Shown one piece after another: positions 5,229 through 33,032 of a DNA stretch of 64,000 nt (position 1 is its first letter; each line of letters begins with the position of its first letter). The translations under genes and the position numbers were made by a program. The DNA lies in NCBI RefSeq assembly GCF_000425865.1, contig NZ_AUEG01000005.1, positions 1 to 64,000 on the forward strand. The letters run 5' to 3'. Source of the DNA: Lacticigenium naphthae DSM 19658. GTDB taxonomy: Bacteria > Bacillota > Bacilli > Lactobacillales > Carnobacteriaceae_A. Under the pieces are notes generated by a model that saw only the letters and a list, made by a program, of their open reading frames with translations, was not told the DNA's origin and did not search any database.

Positions 5229-5807
5229 CTACCTACTGAATTTATAAGGATCGCCTTTTGTTTCGGCTTTTTCAAACATTTTTTCCATACCCATTCCTCT
5301 CATTTCAGTGATCCTAGTAGCTAATTCCGCAGGAGGAATAGGCATATCAGATATGATCCAAGAAAGAGTCATACTACTCGATGCATTTGCATGATATTTT
5401 GTTGCAAAAACTAATTCTTTTGGCATCGTTTTTTTTCCATACAGTTTTTGGTGCCATTGAAGATCAAATGTTTCGCAATGGTTGAAAATATAGTCTTTGA
5501 GACAGTTTTGGTCTTCTTTCATGCAGGCTTCTTTCATAAAACGATGGTATTTCTTCATGTTTTTAAAAGAGAGTAGCAGTGAATCACGAAAATTTATATT
5601 CAAATTGTTTTCATCAAAATCAGGAATAATATATTTCTCATAAATAAATTGTATTAAGTCATTTTTATCTAAAAAATAATTATAAAAAGATTGACGACTG
5701 AGACCACTCTTAGTGGTCAATTGTTTAATGTTAATCGATTCGAGCGAGTTTTTTTCAAGTAAAAGTAAAAATTCATATGCAAACAGCTCTTTATTATTCT
5801 GACTCAT
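5229..5807 (-). CDS. TetR/AcrR-family transcriptional regulator
   Basis: 192 aa. The N-terminal TetR DNA-binding fold is seen as SINIKQLTTKSGLSRQSFYNYFLDK, with the SRQSFYNYF recognition helix. The C-terminal ligand and dimer domain is poorly conserved. It is on the same strand as the phosphatase gene about 100 bp downstream, and faces away from the small-protein/HTH pair across a 375-bp gap. It could regulate itself, the phosphatase pair, or both. A ligand cannot be proposed. Confidence 0.8.
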   Translation of the reverse strand: MSQNNKELFAYEFLLLLEKNSLESINIKQLTTKSGLSRQSFYNYFLDKNDLIQFIYEKYIIPDFDENNLNINFRDSLLLSFKNMKKYHRFMKEACMKEDQNCLKDYIFNHCETFDLQWHQKLYGKKTMPKELVFATKYHANASSSMTLSWIISDMPIPPAELATRITEMRGMGMEKMFEKAETKGDPYKFSR

Positions 5808-28376: not shown

Positions 28377-29204
28377 ATGAGTTTAACCGAAACAACAACC
28401 CTGGCTAATGGAGTAGAAATGCCCCGTTTTGGATTAGGCGTCTGGCAGGCAGAAGACGGAGAAGAAGTGATCCATGCGGTCAAATGGGCTTTGGAAGCTG
28501 GTTATCGTGCCATCGATACAGCTGCAGCTTATCAAAATGAAGAGGGCGTCGGCGAAGGGATTCGCCAATCTGGAATCAGTCGCGAAGATCTGTTCATCAC
28601 GACCAAAGTCGCCAACCGCGATCAAGGATACGATGAAACAATAGCTGCCTTCGATAAAAGTTTAGAGCGTTTGGGAACAGATTATGTAGATCTATACCTG
28701 ATCCACTGGCCGATCGCCAGTTCTTTCGTAGATACATGGAAAGCCCTTGAAAAGATTTATACAGATGGGCGCGCCAAAGCCATCGGTGTCTGCAATTTCC
28801 ATCCGCATCATTTGGATACCCTATTAAAATCCGCAGAGATCGTTCCGATGGTCAACCAGATCGAATTGCATCCGTTACTTTCACAAAAAGAAGTACGTGA
28901 CTACTGTGCTAAAAAGAATATCGCAGTCGAAGCTTATTCTCCACTTGGCAGTGGCGGACTGCTACAAAACAAACAATTGGAAGCCATTGGTGAAAAATAC
29001 GGGAAATCTGTTGCGCAAGTCTTGTTGCGTTGGGACTGGCAACTCGGCATCATCACGATCCCAAAATCCGTTCACCAAAATCGCATCAAAGAAAATGCCG
29101 ATATTTTTGATTTTGCCTTAGCCGCTGAAGACATGGCGCTGATCAACGCCATGAACAAAGACGAACGATTTGGCTGGAACCCCAATCGATTTGACGACAA
29201 ATAA
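28377..29204 (+). CDS. aldo/keto reductase (2,5-diketogluconate reductase/methylglyoxal reductase-like)
   Basis: 275 aa, a small AKR. Start TLANGVEMPRFGLGVWQA, catalytic Asp and Tyr in YRAIDTAAAYQNEEGVGEGI, Lys in DLFITTKVANRD, His in YVDLYLIHWPI, and the C-terminal NADPH-binding IITIPKSVHQNRIKENADIFDF. Likely NADPH-dependent reduction of aldehydes or keto-sugars. AAAGGAGG lies 10 bp ahead of the ATG. The gene is followed by the hairpin repeat array, which starts within 10 bp of the stop codon. Confidence 0.92.
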   Translation: MSLTETTTLANGVEMPRFGLGVWQAEDGEEVIHAVKWALEAGYRAIDTAAAYQNEEGVGEGIRQSGISREDLFITTKVANRDQGYDETIAAFDKSLERLGTDYVDLYLIHWPIASSFVDTWKALEKIYTDGRAKAIGVCNFHPHHLDTLLKSAEIVPMVNQIELHPLLSQKEVRDYCAKKNIAVEAYSPLGSGGLLQNKQLEAIGEKYGKSVAQVLLRWDWQLGIITIPKSVHQNRIKENADIFDFALAAEDMALINAMNKDERFGWNPNRFDDK

Positions 29205-29421
29205 AGAGTGTGAAGGCGACTGTCCTGGCTCGACTGGAAAATAGGGCTGCACAGGACAGAGCATCCTGCACATGGCCAAGCAGCATCTTTTTCCCGAGAG
29301 CCAAGGAGCCGCAACTCATTTTCAATCAAAGAGTGAAGCTTTGCGTTAAGAAATGAGGGGGCTGGAGCAGGGCAGAACAAGATTCGCCAGAATCGGTGAA
29401 GACGACTGTCCTGGCTCGACT

Positions 29422-29590
29422 GGAAGGAGGAACTTCCGCGCCACTCAGCTTGTAGAAGCTAAAAAAGTGTCGCAAAAGGAGTCGATTCGCGACAGTGAAA
29501 CCCGGCAATAGCTCCAAGTGTCCATTACCGGATCGAATCGCGACACTCAAAGAAGAAACACCATCTTAATGGCGCACAAACTATCCAATC
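29422..29590 (+). repeat. 169-bp direct repeat, copy 1
   Basis: Begins GGAAGGAGGAACTTCC and ends CTATCCAATC. Near-identical to 29831-29999, with only scattered substitutions. Includes two hairpins, TGTCGC/GCGACA and AGTGTC/GACACT. Confidence 0.85.
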
Positions 29591-29669
29591 AGGTCACTTT
29601 GATCGAGTATTGGAAGCTAAGTGTCCAGATAGCAGCACGATCTGGACATTTAGCTTGTTTTTTCTCTAG

Positions 29670-29744
29670 GAGTGTCCTCTATCAAGTCGAATCACGACAC
29701 TCAAACAAGAAACACCATCTCAATGGCGCACAAACTATCCAATC
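29670..29744 (+). repeat. partial repeat copy with GAGTGTC/GACACTC hairpin
   Basis: Carries the second hairpin and shared tail of the 169-bp unit but not its first half; the arms GAGTGTC (29670-29676) and GACACTC (29696-29702) pair perfectly. Confidence 0.75.
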
Positions 29745-29830
29745 GCGTCACTTATTCCACAATCGAAAGCTGAGTGTCCCGAAAGTGTCTCGATTGAGAC
29801 ACTCAGCAACCCAATCTTTCTGAAAAGACC

Positions 29831-29999
29831 GGAAGGAGGAACTTCCGCGCCACTCAGTTTGTAGAAGCTAAAAAAGTGTCGCAAAAGGAGTCGAATCGCG
29901 ACAGTGAAACCCGCCAGTAGCTCCAAGTGTCCATTACCGGATCGAATCGCGACACTCAAACAAGAAACACCATCTCAGTGGCCTGCAATCTATCCAATC
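29831..29999 (+). repeat. 169-bp direct repeat, copy 2
   Basis: Same length and order as 29422-29590; substitutions include GCTTG to TTTG at the start and GGCGCACAAA to GGCCTGCAAT near the end. Confidence 0.85.
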
Positions 30000-30052
30000 C
30001 GGATGTCGGGTCTGCTTTTTTGAGCACGTTTCAGAAAATTAAGTCCGCAAAA

Positions 30053-30094
30053 ACAAAAAGAGGTTGAGCTAAGTAGCTCAACCTCTTTTTGTTT
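30053..30094 (-). terminator. terminator of the metNIQ operon
   Basis: AAAAAGAGGTTGAGCTA pairs with TAGCTCAACCTCTTTTT around a 2-base loop, just past the metQ stop. Confidence 0.92.
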
Positions 30095-30098
30095 ACCT

Positions 30099-30935
30099 TT
30101 ATTCACTAACGGGTACGACTGCGCCATCCCATTGTTCCAAAATAAAGTCTTGTGTTTCCTCAGAACGTAATACTTCTACCAATTTTACAATGCGTTCATC
30201 TTCTGCATCCTCAGAACGAACTGCCACGATATTTGCGTAGGGAGATGAACTGCTTTCCAAAGCGATCGCATCATCCAGTGGGCTTAAATCTTGGTCCACG
30301 GCGAAGTTTGAGTTGATGAAAATGACATCCCCTTCGTCTTGTTGGTATAAAGTCGTCAATAGAGCTGCATCGTACTCGTATTCAAATTGTAGATCGCGTT
30401 CGTTCTCAACGATATCATCAAAACTGGCATCTACTAGATCGACTGATTCATCCACTTTGATCAAGCCGGCTTCTTGTAGGATCCCCAGCACGCGGCCATG
30501 ATCAGCTACACTGCTACTAGCTAAAATAGTAGCTCCATCAGGCAAATCGCTCAAATTGGTGTGACGCTGAGAATAAGCACCCAGTGGTTCGATATGGATT
30601 GCACCAGCGTTGACAAAATCAAAATCATTTTCTTCTACCTGCGCCTCAAAGAATGGAATGTGCTGGAAATAGTTGGCATCGATATCGCCATCGCTTAAAG
30701 CCATGTTGGGAATAATATAATCGTTGTACGTCTCGATTTCTAGCTCAATGCCTTCTTCAGCTAAAACAGGCGCCACGAATTCTAGAATTTCCGCATGCGG
30801 TACATTTGTTGCTCCGACAGTCAACACTTGATTCTCTTCTGTTTCTGTGGCTGCCTCATCCCCAGAATCGCTATTTCCACAAGCACCCAATACCAATACT
30901 GTACTCAAAAACGTTACCCCTACCAATTTTTTCAT
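30099..30935 (-). CDS. metQ: methionine ABC transporter substrate-binding lipoprotein MetQ
   Basis: 278 aa. Lipoprotein signal with lipobox VLGAC about residue 20; mature part starts with an acidic linker. NlpA family features: LTVGATNVPHAEILEFVAPVLAEEGIELEIETYNDY-like opening, NMALSDGDIDANYFQHIPFFE, and FINSNFAVDQDLSPLDDAIALE. It binds methionine outside the membrane and hands it to MetI. The second of two adjacent ATG codons is better spaced from GGGGG. Last gene of metNIQ. Confidence 0.94.
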   Translation of the reverse strand: MKKLVGVTFLSTVLVLGACGNSDSGDEAATETEENQVLTVGATNVPHAEILEFVAPVLAEEGIELEIETYNDYIIPNMALSDGDIDANYFQHIPFFEAQVEENDFDFVNAGAIHIEPLGAYSQRHTNLSDLPDGATILASSSVADHGRVLGILQEAGLIKVDESVDLVDASFDDIVENERDLQFEYEYDAALLTTLYQQDEGDVIFINSNFAVDQDLSPLDDAIALESSSSPYANIVAVRSEDAEDERIVKLVEVLRSEETQDFILEQWDGAVVPVSE

Positions 30936-30962: not shown

Positions 30963-31670
30963 TTATCTTTTATCTATTTTATTTACGACAATATCTCCAA
31001 CAAATTGTATAGCAAATACTATGAGTAAAATGACCACCGTTGCTACTAATGTGACGGTCGCCTGGTTGCGTTGGAACCCTTCTAGATAAGCAAGATTTCC
31101 CAAACCACCTGCCCCGATCACTCCTGCCATAGCTGTGTAGCCAACTAATGAAATGGCCGTGACCGTTATTCCCGAAACAATCGATGGTAAACTTTCCGGA
31201 ATATATACTTTCCAAATCATTTCCCATTTGGATGCCCCCATCGCTTCAGCCGCCTCGATGACCCCTTTATCGATCTCGCGTAGGCCCGTTTCAACCAGTC
31301 GACCATAAAACGGAGCTGCCGAAAGGATCAATGCCGGCAAACCTGCAGTGGGCCCGGTCATGCTATCTAATATAGCTTTCGTAAACGGGATCAACAACAC
31401 GATCAATATCAAAAACGGTATGGATCGGAATACATTTACAAAAAAGGAAACAACTTTATACGATCCTCGCGCCCATAACGACTCTTTCCCACGTGATTCG
31501 AATAATAGCAATCCGATCAATATACCTAAAATAAATACCGCACTAACGGAAAACGCCGTCATATAAATGGTTTCTTGGGTTGCTTCCCAAACTTTCGGCC
31601 AGCGCACTTCTGTGAAGTCTGTATAATCTGCCAGCACGCTTAGGATCATTCCATTATTGAAGGGCATCAT
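30963..31670 (-). CDS. metI: methionine ABC transporter permease MetI
   Basis: 235 aa. Five or six transmembrane helices; MetI-type N-terminus ETIYMTAFSVSAVFILGILIGLLLF, RSIPFLILIVLLIPF, and the EAA loop EAAEAMGASKWEMIWKVYIPESLP that docks on MetN. It overlaps metN by 17 bp and has GGAGG 6 bp ahead of its start. Confidence 0.95.
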   Translation of the reverse strand: MMPFNNGMILSVLADYTDFTEVRWPKVWEATQETIYMTAFSVSAVFILGILIGLLLFESRGKESLWARGSYKVVSFFVNVFRSIPFLILIVLLIPFTKAILDSMTGPTAGLPALILSAAPFYGRLVETGLREIDKGVIEAAEAMGASKWEMIWKVYIPESLPSIVSGITVTAISLVGYTAMAGVIGAGGLGNLAYLEGFQRNQATVTLVATVVILLIVFAIQFVGDIVVNKIDKR

Positions 31671-32691
31671 TCAACACCTCCACTTCTACTCGGTAAACCC
31701 TAAACTCTTTGATAGCTTCTTCTACTGCAGCTTCTTCTCCCAATAACTGGATCGTCAAGGTTCCGATCGGTGTTTCTTGGGTCGATTGCATACTTCCTTG
31801 AATAATATTGACGTCTACATTAAATGATCGGCTCACATGAGAAATCACAGGTGCTTGCGCGCTACCTCCATGGAACAATAACCGGATCAATTTTCCTTCA
31901 GGATAGGTTTTAAGTAATTCGCGTAAAACTTCATCCGTATCTTCACTATCCGGATCGGAGTCTTGCCGGATGAACCGTTTTGTTGTGGGATGGGCCGGGT
32001 GTTTGAACAAGGACAGTACCTCTCCTTCTTCCACGACTTTGCCTCCATCCATCACAGCCATCCGGTGACAAATTTTTCTGACCACATGCATCTCATGCGT
32101 GATCATGACGATCGTTAGATTCATCTTTTTATTGATCGAAACCAACAAATCCAATACATCATCGGTCGTCTGGGGGTCTAAGGCACTTGTAGCTTCATCA
32201 CACAACAATACTTGTGGTTCATTCGCCAAGGCTCTCGCGATCCCCACACGCTGCTTTTGCCCACCGGAGAGTTGTGCTGGGTATGCGTCTTCTCTTCCCT
32301 GCAATCCCACTAATTCAATCAGTTCTTTTGCTCTTTTGATCCGTTCTGTTTTTTCCACTTTCGCGATTTCTAGTGGAAAACAAATATTTTCTAGAACAGT
32401 TCGACTCCAGAGTAAATTGAAATGCTGGAAAATCATGCCGATGGCTCGTCTCTCTTTCCGTAATGCTTGTCCGCTCATTGTGGAGATGATTTTATCATTC
32501 AACGTGACTGTCCCGCTTGTCGGTTTTTCCAACCCATTTAGCATTCGGACCAAGGTACTTTTACCTGCACCGGAGTATCCGACGATGCCGAAAATTTCAC
32601 CTGACTGGATCGTTAAATTGACAGCATCGACCGCTTTGACCGCTTTGTTTTTACCAGTAAATTCCTTTGACACATCTTTTAAAGTGATCAT
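31654..32691 (-). CDS. metN: methionine ABC transporter ATP-binding protein MetN
   Basis: 345 aa, the usual length. Walker A GYSGAGKSTLVRMLNG, Q-loop MIFQHFNLL, signature LSGGQKQRVGIARAL, Walker B VLLCDEATSALDP, H-loop MITHEM, plus the C-terminal NIL regulatory domain (about residues 260-345, LLFHGGSAQAPVISHVSR...) that senses methionine. ATG 32691 has AGAGAGG 9 bp ahead. The open frame continues upstream into the T-box leader but this is not coding. Confidence 0.95.
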   Translation of the reverse strand: MITLKDVSKEFTGKNKAVKAVDAVNLTIQSGEIFGIVGYSGAGKSTLVRMLNGLEKPTSGTVTLNDKIISTMSGQALRKERRAIGMIFQHFNLLWSRTVLENICFPLEIAKVEKTERIKRAKELIELVGLQGREDAYPAQLSGGQKQRVGIARALANEPQVLLCDEATSALDPQTTDDVLDLLVSINKKMNLTIVMITHEMHVVRKICHRMAVMDGGKVVEEGEVLSLFKHPAHPTTKRFIRQDSDPDSEDTDEVLRELLKTYPEGKLIRLLFHGGSAQAPVISHVSRSFNVDVNIIQGSMQSTQETPIGTLTIQLLGEEAAVEEAIKEFRVYRVEVEVLNDALQ

Positions 32692-32721
32692 CCTGTCCAT
32701 CCTCTCTGAAAATTTGGGTAT

Positions 32722-33032
32722 AAAAAAAGTCCTTTTCAAGTCTATCAACTTAAAAAGGACGAAAGAGGTCTTCCGTGGTTCCACCTTTGTTCGTTGTCTT
32801 ATCGCTAAAACAACCTCACCCAGTACTTGAACACAAAGTGTATTCGCATACTGCGGCACGTTATCGGGTGCAACCGGGAGGAGTTTGTGTTTCCATTCAC
32901 TCATCCTGCTCAAAGACCATCTTCCATTTTGATTGTAATACTTCATTTCACCACACTGAAGCTCTCTTTGATTACCCTCTAAAATGTACTCTTCTTTTCA
33001 ACGCTCATTGTATTTTAATGTTTGTTTAATGT
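32722..33032 (-). ncRNA. T-box leader of metNIQ
   Basis: The conserved T-box sequence GGTGGAACCACG is found on the minus strand (complement of 32774-32785). Downstream is the terminator: GTCCTTTTTAAGT pairing with ACTTGAAAAGGAC followed by seven Ts (complement of 32722-32760). Upstream is the long Stem I region. The amino acid is inferred to be methionine from the genes it controls; ATG triplets are present in Stem I but I cannot place the specifier loop with certainty. Uncharged tRNA would let transcription continue. Confidence 0.92.

Follow-up and report, generated by a model that had tools for sequence, protein, structure and literature searches.

The large intergenic block at positions 29205-30050 of the window (the whole 64,000-nt stretch of Lacticigenium naphthae DSM 19658 DNA analyzed here) contains an array of inverted half-sites that alternate on a lattice of 51 bp, a length close to five helical turns. 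On the strength of these sequence patterns, we tentatively favor, with somewhat less than even confidence, the interpretation that this array belongs to a class of dispersed intergenic, helically phased arrays that would be bound by a putative protein. The geometry is fixed, the half-sites are conserved, their would-be stems present no clear compensatory change and the repeats follow the phase of the helix; a DNA-level binding platform would be the simplest account of these properties taken together.

Composition of the repeat block

The block lies between an aldo/keto-reductase-like gene (ending at 29204) and a convergent metQ-like gene (ending at 30099), both names being read by eye from the translations. 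Three repeat families compose it: A (29205-29425), B (29418-30002) and C, which is represented by half an element (about 30001-30044). A 21-bp inverted repeat separates the array from the metQ-like gene (Table 1). The segment 29205-29401 was matched almost end to end at five other places of the same genome (89-93% identity), and A1 units stand in tandem on contig C7 (5.2 copies of 120 nt).

Table 1. Features of the repeat block, with further A elements (positions refer to the window unless a locus is named)
Feature	Positions	Strand	Remarks
A element, type A2, ~120-nt unit	29205..29325	+	directly 3' of the aldo/keto-reductase-like stop codon (29204)
A element, type A1, 5' part only (full units ~120 nt)	29326..29401	+	
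30-nt start of second A2 unit, fused to B array	29396..29425	+	97% (family D3)
B array, 51-bp lattice, alternating TGTC / GACA half-site cores	29418..30002	+	
First 176-nt copy in higher-order unit	29418..29593	+	D1
Dyad unit s4, long stem, then T-rich stretch	29616..29654	+	inverted repeat I3
Partial third copy	29671..29753	+	D2, 87% over 83 nt
Dyad unit s4 with two alternative folds	29769..29807	+	
Second 176-nt copy	29827..30002	+	D1, 93% identical to first
C element, 3' half, terminator-like; 5' arm missing here	30001..30044	+	sequence matches
21-bp perfect inverted repeat, A/T flanks	30051..30094	.	I1; bidirectional terminator-like hairpin
A elements	window 29205-29425; L013 3574-4247, 12233-12978; L015 3737-4110; L019 3444-3639; L022 2616-2659		

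The repeats reported in the initial annotation are real, since two direct 176-nt copies and a partial further copy are present (Table 1). Its 169-bp unit is indeed repeated, but forms only part of a higher-order repeat whose basic unit is 51 bp. The 30-bp side repeats that it described also exist (29210-29239 and 29396-29425, 97% identical) but belong to family A and not to B, and the constant tail that it assigned to the unit had to be reassigned: the sequence after 30001 belongs to the third family, C. Both of the alternative folds that it named are found around 29769-29807. It was also right to discard a protein frame, as none fits the arrays, and CRISPR spacing: CRISPR arrays combine identical repeats with unique spacers, whereas the stretches between the half-sites are here themselves repeated.

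Six terminator-like hairpins were found in 29150-30150 versus 1.1 expected. The B array presents three perfect 7-bp stems against a shuffled mean of 0.30, although the best of 100 shuffles also reached three. Across 25 arrays, none of these stems was found in L159 and several arrays did no better than their best shuffle; perfect stems alone are the weaker evidence that the repeats exceed chance. No match to the block was obtained in phage and plasmid collections.

A 51-bp lattice in the L. naphthae genome

The TGTC and GACA half-sites of the B lattice alternate at 23 and 28 bp, and the higher-order unit of 255 bp corresponds to 5 x 51. When the B array of the window was compared with itself, the self-match at lag 51 was 0.43 (mean 0.26, z 5.2); lags 102, 153, 204, 255 and 307 also gave peaks. 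The initial annotation had envisaged a family of elements and the locus is in fact not unique: the similarity search of the genome yielded at least 89 matches (40 of the 51 candidate places scored). All 17 B/D arrays examined in this genome, which had been found beforehand by similarity or as tandem repeats, showed the lag-51 period in self-comparison (z 2.9 to 6.6). Multiples of this lag, up to 306, were observed in the arrays of sufficient length, and z did not exceed 1.9 at lags 50 and 52 in 16 of the 17, the exception being L114 (at 51-52). Class D arrays possess other half-sites (GAAGTTG / CAACTTC) on the same 51-bp lattice. Tandem units of 255 and 306 nt identified by TRF equal 5 x 51 and 6 x 51, and higher-order units of 255, 256 or 306 nt are homogenised inside arrays (83-94% matches).

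A period scan from 30 to 100 for which no motif was chosen returned 17 noncoding segments at 51 versus 10 at all other periods, in stretches most of which had been picked for known arrays. By our count, these 17 segments represent about 13 distinct arrays (three arrays were split), and arrays inside one genome are non-independent samples. Three of the 10 segments at other periods were at 85, a third of 255. Among 20 stretches of 20 kb taken at spread positions, two contained new 51-bp arrays. The 25.5-bp distance between dyad axes was given no weight, because any periodic array with one axis has another halfway.

Coding repeats were considered and rejected: 51 is a multiple of 3, so that a frame stays open mechanically in some arrays, and several arrays carry 1-bp shifts (lags 154, 256 and 307), contrary to a coding-repeat reading.

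Arrays in other genomes

Searches by DNA similarity did not extend the family to other genomes: only one of 40 matched (G033), and only with the C part. The evidence from other genomes comes from motif-free period scans. G002 was chosen without knowledge of arrays and its stretches were positioned blind to them; the same scan placed eight of its nine noncoding arrays at 51 or 52, the first array being met within 40 kb and the rest in 140 kb more at spread positions. All six noncoding arrays of G023 and the single arrays of G020 and G022 were also at 51 or 52, in stretches that, for G020, G022 and most of G023, had been picked for known arrays. One weak array at 52 and one at 77 were found in G028. 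G002, G020, G022 and G023 belong to one genus (g3), which is another genus of the family of L. naphthae, and thus do not represent four independent lineages. Arrays of period 51-52 were absent from the samples of G005 and G008 (200 kb each), G033, G026 and G027 (100 kb each), G007 (60 kb), G006 (40 kb) and G003 (20 kb).

G265, a member of another family, presented three short lag-51 segments in 60 kb chosen for pattern hits; no lag near 51 was found in five further stretches of this genome or in two G023 stretches taken without known arrays. Pattern matches outside the L. naphthae genome are at background level: among 394 other genomes, one pattern search matched 17 against about 30 for its backward control (by our count), and a second matched 3 against 4. 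These searches served only to point to G020, G022, G023 and G265, where the period scans constitute the evidence. In one lag analysis the best lags of L155-L159 were circular, the region having been chosen by lag 51; the later period scans are free of this fault. We make no claim that stem sequences are conserved from one genome to another, since such an argument would be circular.

The sequences themselves differ among these genomes. G023 contains six related arrays, its query had no match in G020 or G022, and the G020 array had none in G023 or G022. The shared property is the geometry, carried by several sequence families and not by one. Searches of the open-licence PMC literature listed no earlier description of such arrays.

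Conservation of half-sites and pairing

Judged from the alignments, the half-sites are conserved as sequences rather than as pairs. Across 21 B copies from 10 arrays, whose mean pairwise identity is 76%, the six half-site cores were 96.8% identical relative to 81.6% for the other columns, a comparison with mild circularity since the cores were chosen for recurring in the consensus. The true core position was the best of 176 circular shifts, and the core centres alternate at 28/23/28/23/28 bp. This alignment was sequence-based, required about 140 or more of the 176 nt to be matched and dropped shorter matches. Paired cells amounted to 88.1% versus 88.0% in shuffles and the second pair of each stem was broken in 9 of the 21 copies. 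Cells changed on both sides numbered 4 against 1.8 in shuffles, a value reached by 41 of 500 shuffles. The long-stem unit s4 stayed within about two rows of the shuffles at every pair position in an ungapped set of 20 distinct rows (25 matches minus three reverse-strand duplicates and two identical rows). The hairpins of the initial annotation present no compensatory change clearly beyond shuffles. An apparent covariation signal was set aside: it was obtained with units placed by best pairing, and the sequence-based and s4 alignments show none or little.

In G002, the consensus units of four arrays, built by folding at the period without anchors, have the blocks TGTCGAACTC and GAGTNTGCACTTTT in common, and the stretches between these blocks differ (an ungapped comparison gave 23 to 41 identical columns out of 51-52). 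A fifth array that was grouped with them in the phasing analysis, L195, proved unrelated, with 19-22 of 51 columns alike. The anchored comparison gave 99.3% and 98.6% for the cores versus 68.1% and 78.3% (25 of 30 units), figures that are inflated because the units were picked by anchors inside those blocks. In the would-be stem of G002, 16 of 17 units leave one position unpaired, and the following position is a G-T in 15 of 17. Among the arrays, L178 of G265 (5401-5575) most resembles one under selection for pairing: it presents hairpins at 51-bp spacing with stems of 12-13 bp and both arms changed together.

Helical phasing

Ten harmonics were ranked in each of 12 array families, with the period fitted per array (range 50.4 to 52.7). 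The fifth harmonic of AT-AT (WW) steps, about 10.2 bp, was the strongest in seven families and ranked second in three. The exceptions were the TGAGT group of G002 (rank 4) and G022a (rank 6). For GC-GC (SS) steps the fifth harmonic was first in seven of the 12 families and ranked 8 or 9 in three. Its mean share was 25.6% for AT-AT and 18.5% for GC-GC versus 10% expected, and ordinary control segments of 600 nt were flat (n = 306). A phasing of 10.2 bp is a pattern that DNA laid on a protein surface may show.

RNA folding

The RNA fold of the B array of the window had a z of -5.5, and none of 100 shuffles was as good. Five 150-nt pieces of other arrays had z values of -1.9, -1.8, +0.6, -2.6 and -0.3. 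Three A pieces gave -1.98 (29205..29325), -0.17 and -1.47, at best modestly better than shuffles. At gathering score, Rfam gave no match to the element; it returned a T-box elsewhere in the window and a single tRNA across eight loci. No promoter-like site was found in 29150-30150. The T-box leader (RF00230, 116 bits) lies at 32752-33010 on the minus strand and overlaps the start of a long ABC-transporter ATPase ORF (31654-32946).

Candidate explanations

If the arrays are binding platforms, a putative sequence-specific protein, dimeric or polymerising, would occupy the half-sites in register with the helix. It would then wrap or stack along the array into a large nucleoprotein assembly, comparable to that of ParB on the tandem sopC centromere, and such assemblies may organise or insulate the chromosome at many intergenic points. 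Recombination and slippage would account for the spread and growth of array copies. Because one genome can hold arrays with different half-sites (GAGTGTC, GAAGTTG), a single protein for all of them is not obvious. The fold of the window array and the T-rich stretch after one of its dyads count against a binding platform, as do the compensated stems of G265 and the excess of double-changed cells. We regard as more doubtful a wider reading in which a Lactobacillales lineage would possess a chromosome-wide system: a putative dyad-recognising, DNA-wrapping protein acting on dozens of satellite-like arrays, with a conserved geometry (51-52 bp, five turns) and sequences in fast turnover, for which eukaryotic centromere satellites offer a likeness.

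A serious rival, although we judge it unlikely, is that the arrays are neutral satellites, grown by slippage and unequal recombination to which palindromes are prone, with the 51-bp unit as a mutational product that requires no protein. The homogenised higher-order units within arrays and the sequence turnover between genomes are in line with this, and it stays serious because the position bias is not significant (p 0.06) and no partner is known. Such a process would nevertheless leave unexplained why one fixed period recurs with different sequences in several genomes, why half-sites are selectively conserved between loci and why the steps are phased at about 10.2 bp, three properties that a protein-binding lattice would account for. 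We consider it quite unlikely that these are non-autonomous mobile palindromic elements (REP/BIME/MITE-like) whose hairpins would be acted upon by a transposase. The REP/BIME-like label of the initial annotation captures the alternating inverted motifs, the intergenic placement and the many dispersed copies in one genome; genome-particular sequences would also fit, as REPs are reported to be specific to a species or strain (PMC2817692). By eye, three B arrays, those of the window, L016 6060 and L016 16530, begin near a common GGAAGGA-like motif, but others begin at other phases. The label does not extend to the 51-bp geometry and the array-specific sequences, which are unlike REPs, nor to the transposase that it had brought up: the Y1_Tnp domain (PF01797, Y1/RAYT) was found 0 times in the genome versus in 5 of 14 control genomes by the same search, which covers the Y1 family only. 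This negative result is also the sole one that bears on the target for a mobilising enzyme suggested by the initial annotation. Moreover, the complementary mutations reported for Stenotrophomonas BIMEs in the account of PMC2817692 are not clear in these arrays.

An RNA-level role, with transcribed arrays acting as terminators, 3'-UTR structures or protein-binding RNA, appears improbable. The structured RNA proposed by the initial annotation agrees with the folding of the window array and with the T-rich stretch that follows the hairpin at 29616-29654. A elements lie close 3' of stop codons, as do C elements in the places where these were seen, and the array strand equals the gene strand in eight of the nine B/D arrays between tandem genes (in one placement; the ORF limits of the other differ). 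Yet the stems vary without covariation clearly beyond shuffles, pieces of other arrays fold with z from -2.6 to +0.6 only, the Rfam and promoter searches above were negative for the element, and RNA pairing gives no grounds for phasing at about 10.2 bp.

Bacterial intergenic repeats are usually sorted by sequence, and what is conserved here is a helix-matched spacing, retained in several genomes whose array sequences differ. Should a protein recognise this lattice, the arrays would represent a new way of marking bacterial chromosomes. They would also offer a simple example, in bacteria, of satellite DNA that evolves fast while its function is conserved. Neutral arrays, too, would require a mutational process, one that generates units of 51-52 bp.

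Comparison with known systems

The closest working likeness may be sopC, and the closest layout that of BIMEs. The sopC site of the F plasmid (parS-F) is described as twelve 43-bp repeats, in each of which a dimer binds a 16-bp inverted repeat (PMC9178275). Our arrays similarly consist of tandem fixed-length repeats that each hold an inverted repeat; they differ in their length of 51-52 bp, their separated half-sites, their dispersal in many places on the chromosome and their array-specific sequence. A centromere of the sopC type also has its own partition genes and a centromere-binding protein; the neighbours of the window array resemble, by eye, aldo/keto reductase and MetQ. BIMEs and REPs of proteobacteria are presented as intergenic, regularly spaced palindromic units of alternating orientation (PMC2817692), a description that also applies to these arrays and their many copies. 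The differences are the 51-bp lattice, the lack of clear compensatory change and a genome (G000) without a RAYT-type domain; membership in the REP/RAYT group fails because of the 0 matches to Y1. The gyrase motif, including the gyrase sites of BIME-2, is reported to be symmetric and long, with AT/GC content periodic at 10.75 bp over 130 bp (PMC6379681). Our arrays are likewise symmetric and long with periodic AT/GC content, but gyrase seems not to be the best fit: in strong gyrase sites (SGS) a cleavage core is flanked by arms of about 47 bp with a 10.75-bp period, and the arrays present about 10.2 bp and conserved half-sites. Pneumococcal BOX elements are modular and intergenic with a repeated internal module, as are these arrays, but their module lengths and sequences appear to differ.

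Genomic distribution and other repeats

The position bias of the arrays is not significant: 11 were placed between convergent, 20 between tandem and 4 between divergent genes (35 of 38 arrays) versus 49, 161 and 69 (p 0.06), with mechanical gene calls and two placement analyses that class some arrays differently. Contigs C1, C2 and C4, which rank among the four largest and total about 1.05 Mb, had no A, B or D match among the matches listed, and no 51-bp segment in samples of 300 kb. The gene dnaA and parS-like sites are located on C2; these chromosomal sites, which we take to be parS-like from the motif TGTTTCACGTGAAACA, are separate from the arrays. There is a hint that the arrays cluster regionally, perhaps distant from the origin, a hint confounded by an incomplete similarity search (which missed L257 and L258) and by assembly breaks at repeats.

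A elements comprise the types A1 and A2, in tandem at 120 nt or alternating at 242 nt, and often start with AGAGAGTG, located at the 3' end of a gene or overlapping it. Mechanically called ORF ends overlap an A repeat at L013 ~18360, L016 ~17606, L019 ~3627 and L022 ~2627. Many intergenic places of the genome (L023-L032, L115-L119 and others) carry C elements in the form of terminator-like 3' hairpins, and a 37-nt piece of G033, a genome of another family, is similar to a C element. Two more tandem arrays in L016 (2486-2775 and 11769-12076), with units of about 125-127 nt, are distinct from A, B and C by eye. Finally, G033 contains on its contig C1 (1041871, 1463686 and 1618639) three identical 45-nt AAGTTG/CAACTT dyads with a promoter-like TTGACA, which look like an unrelated repeat.
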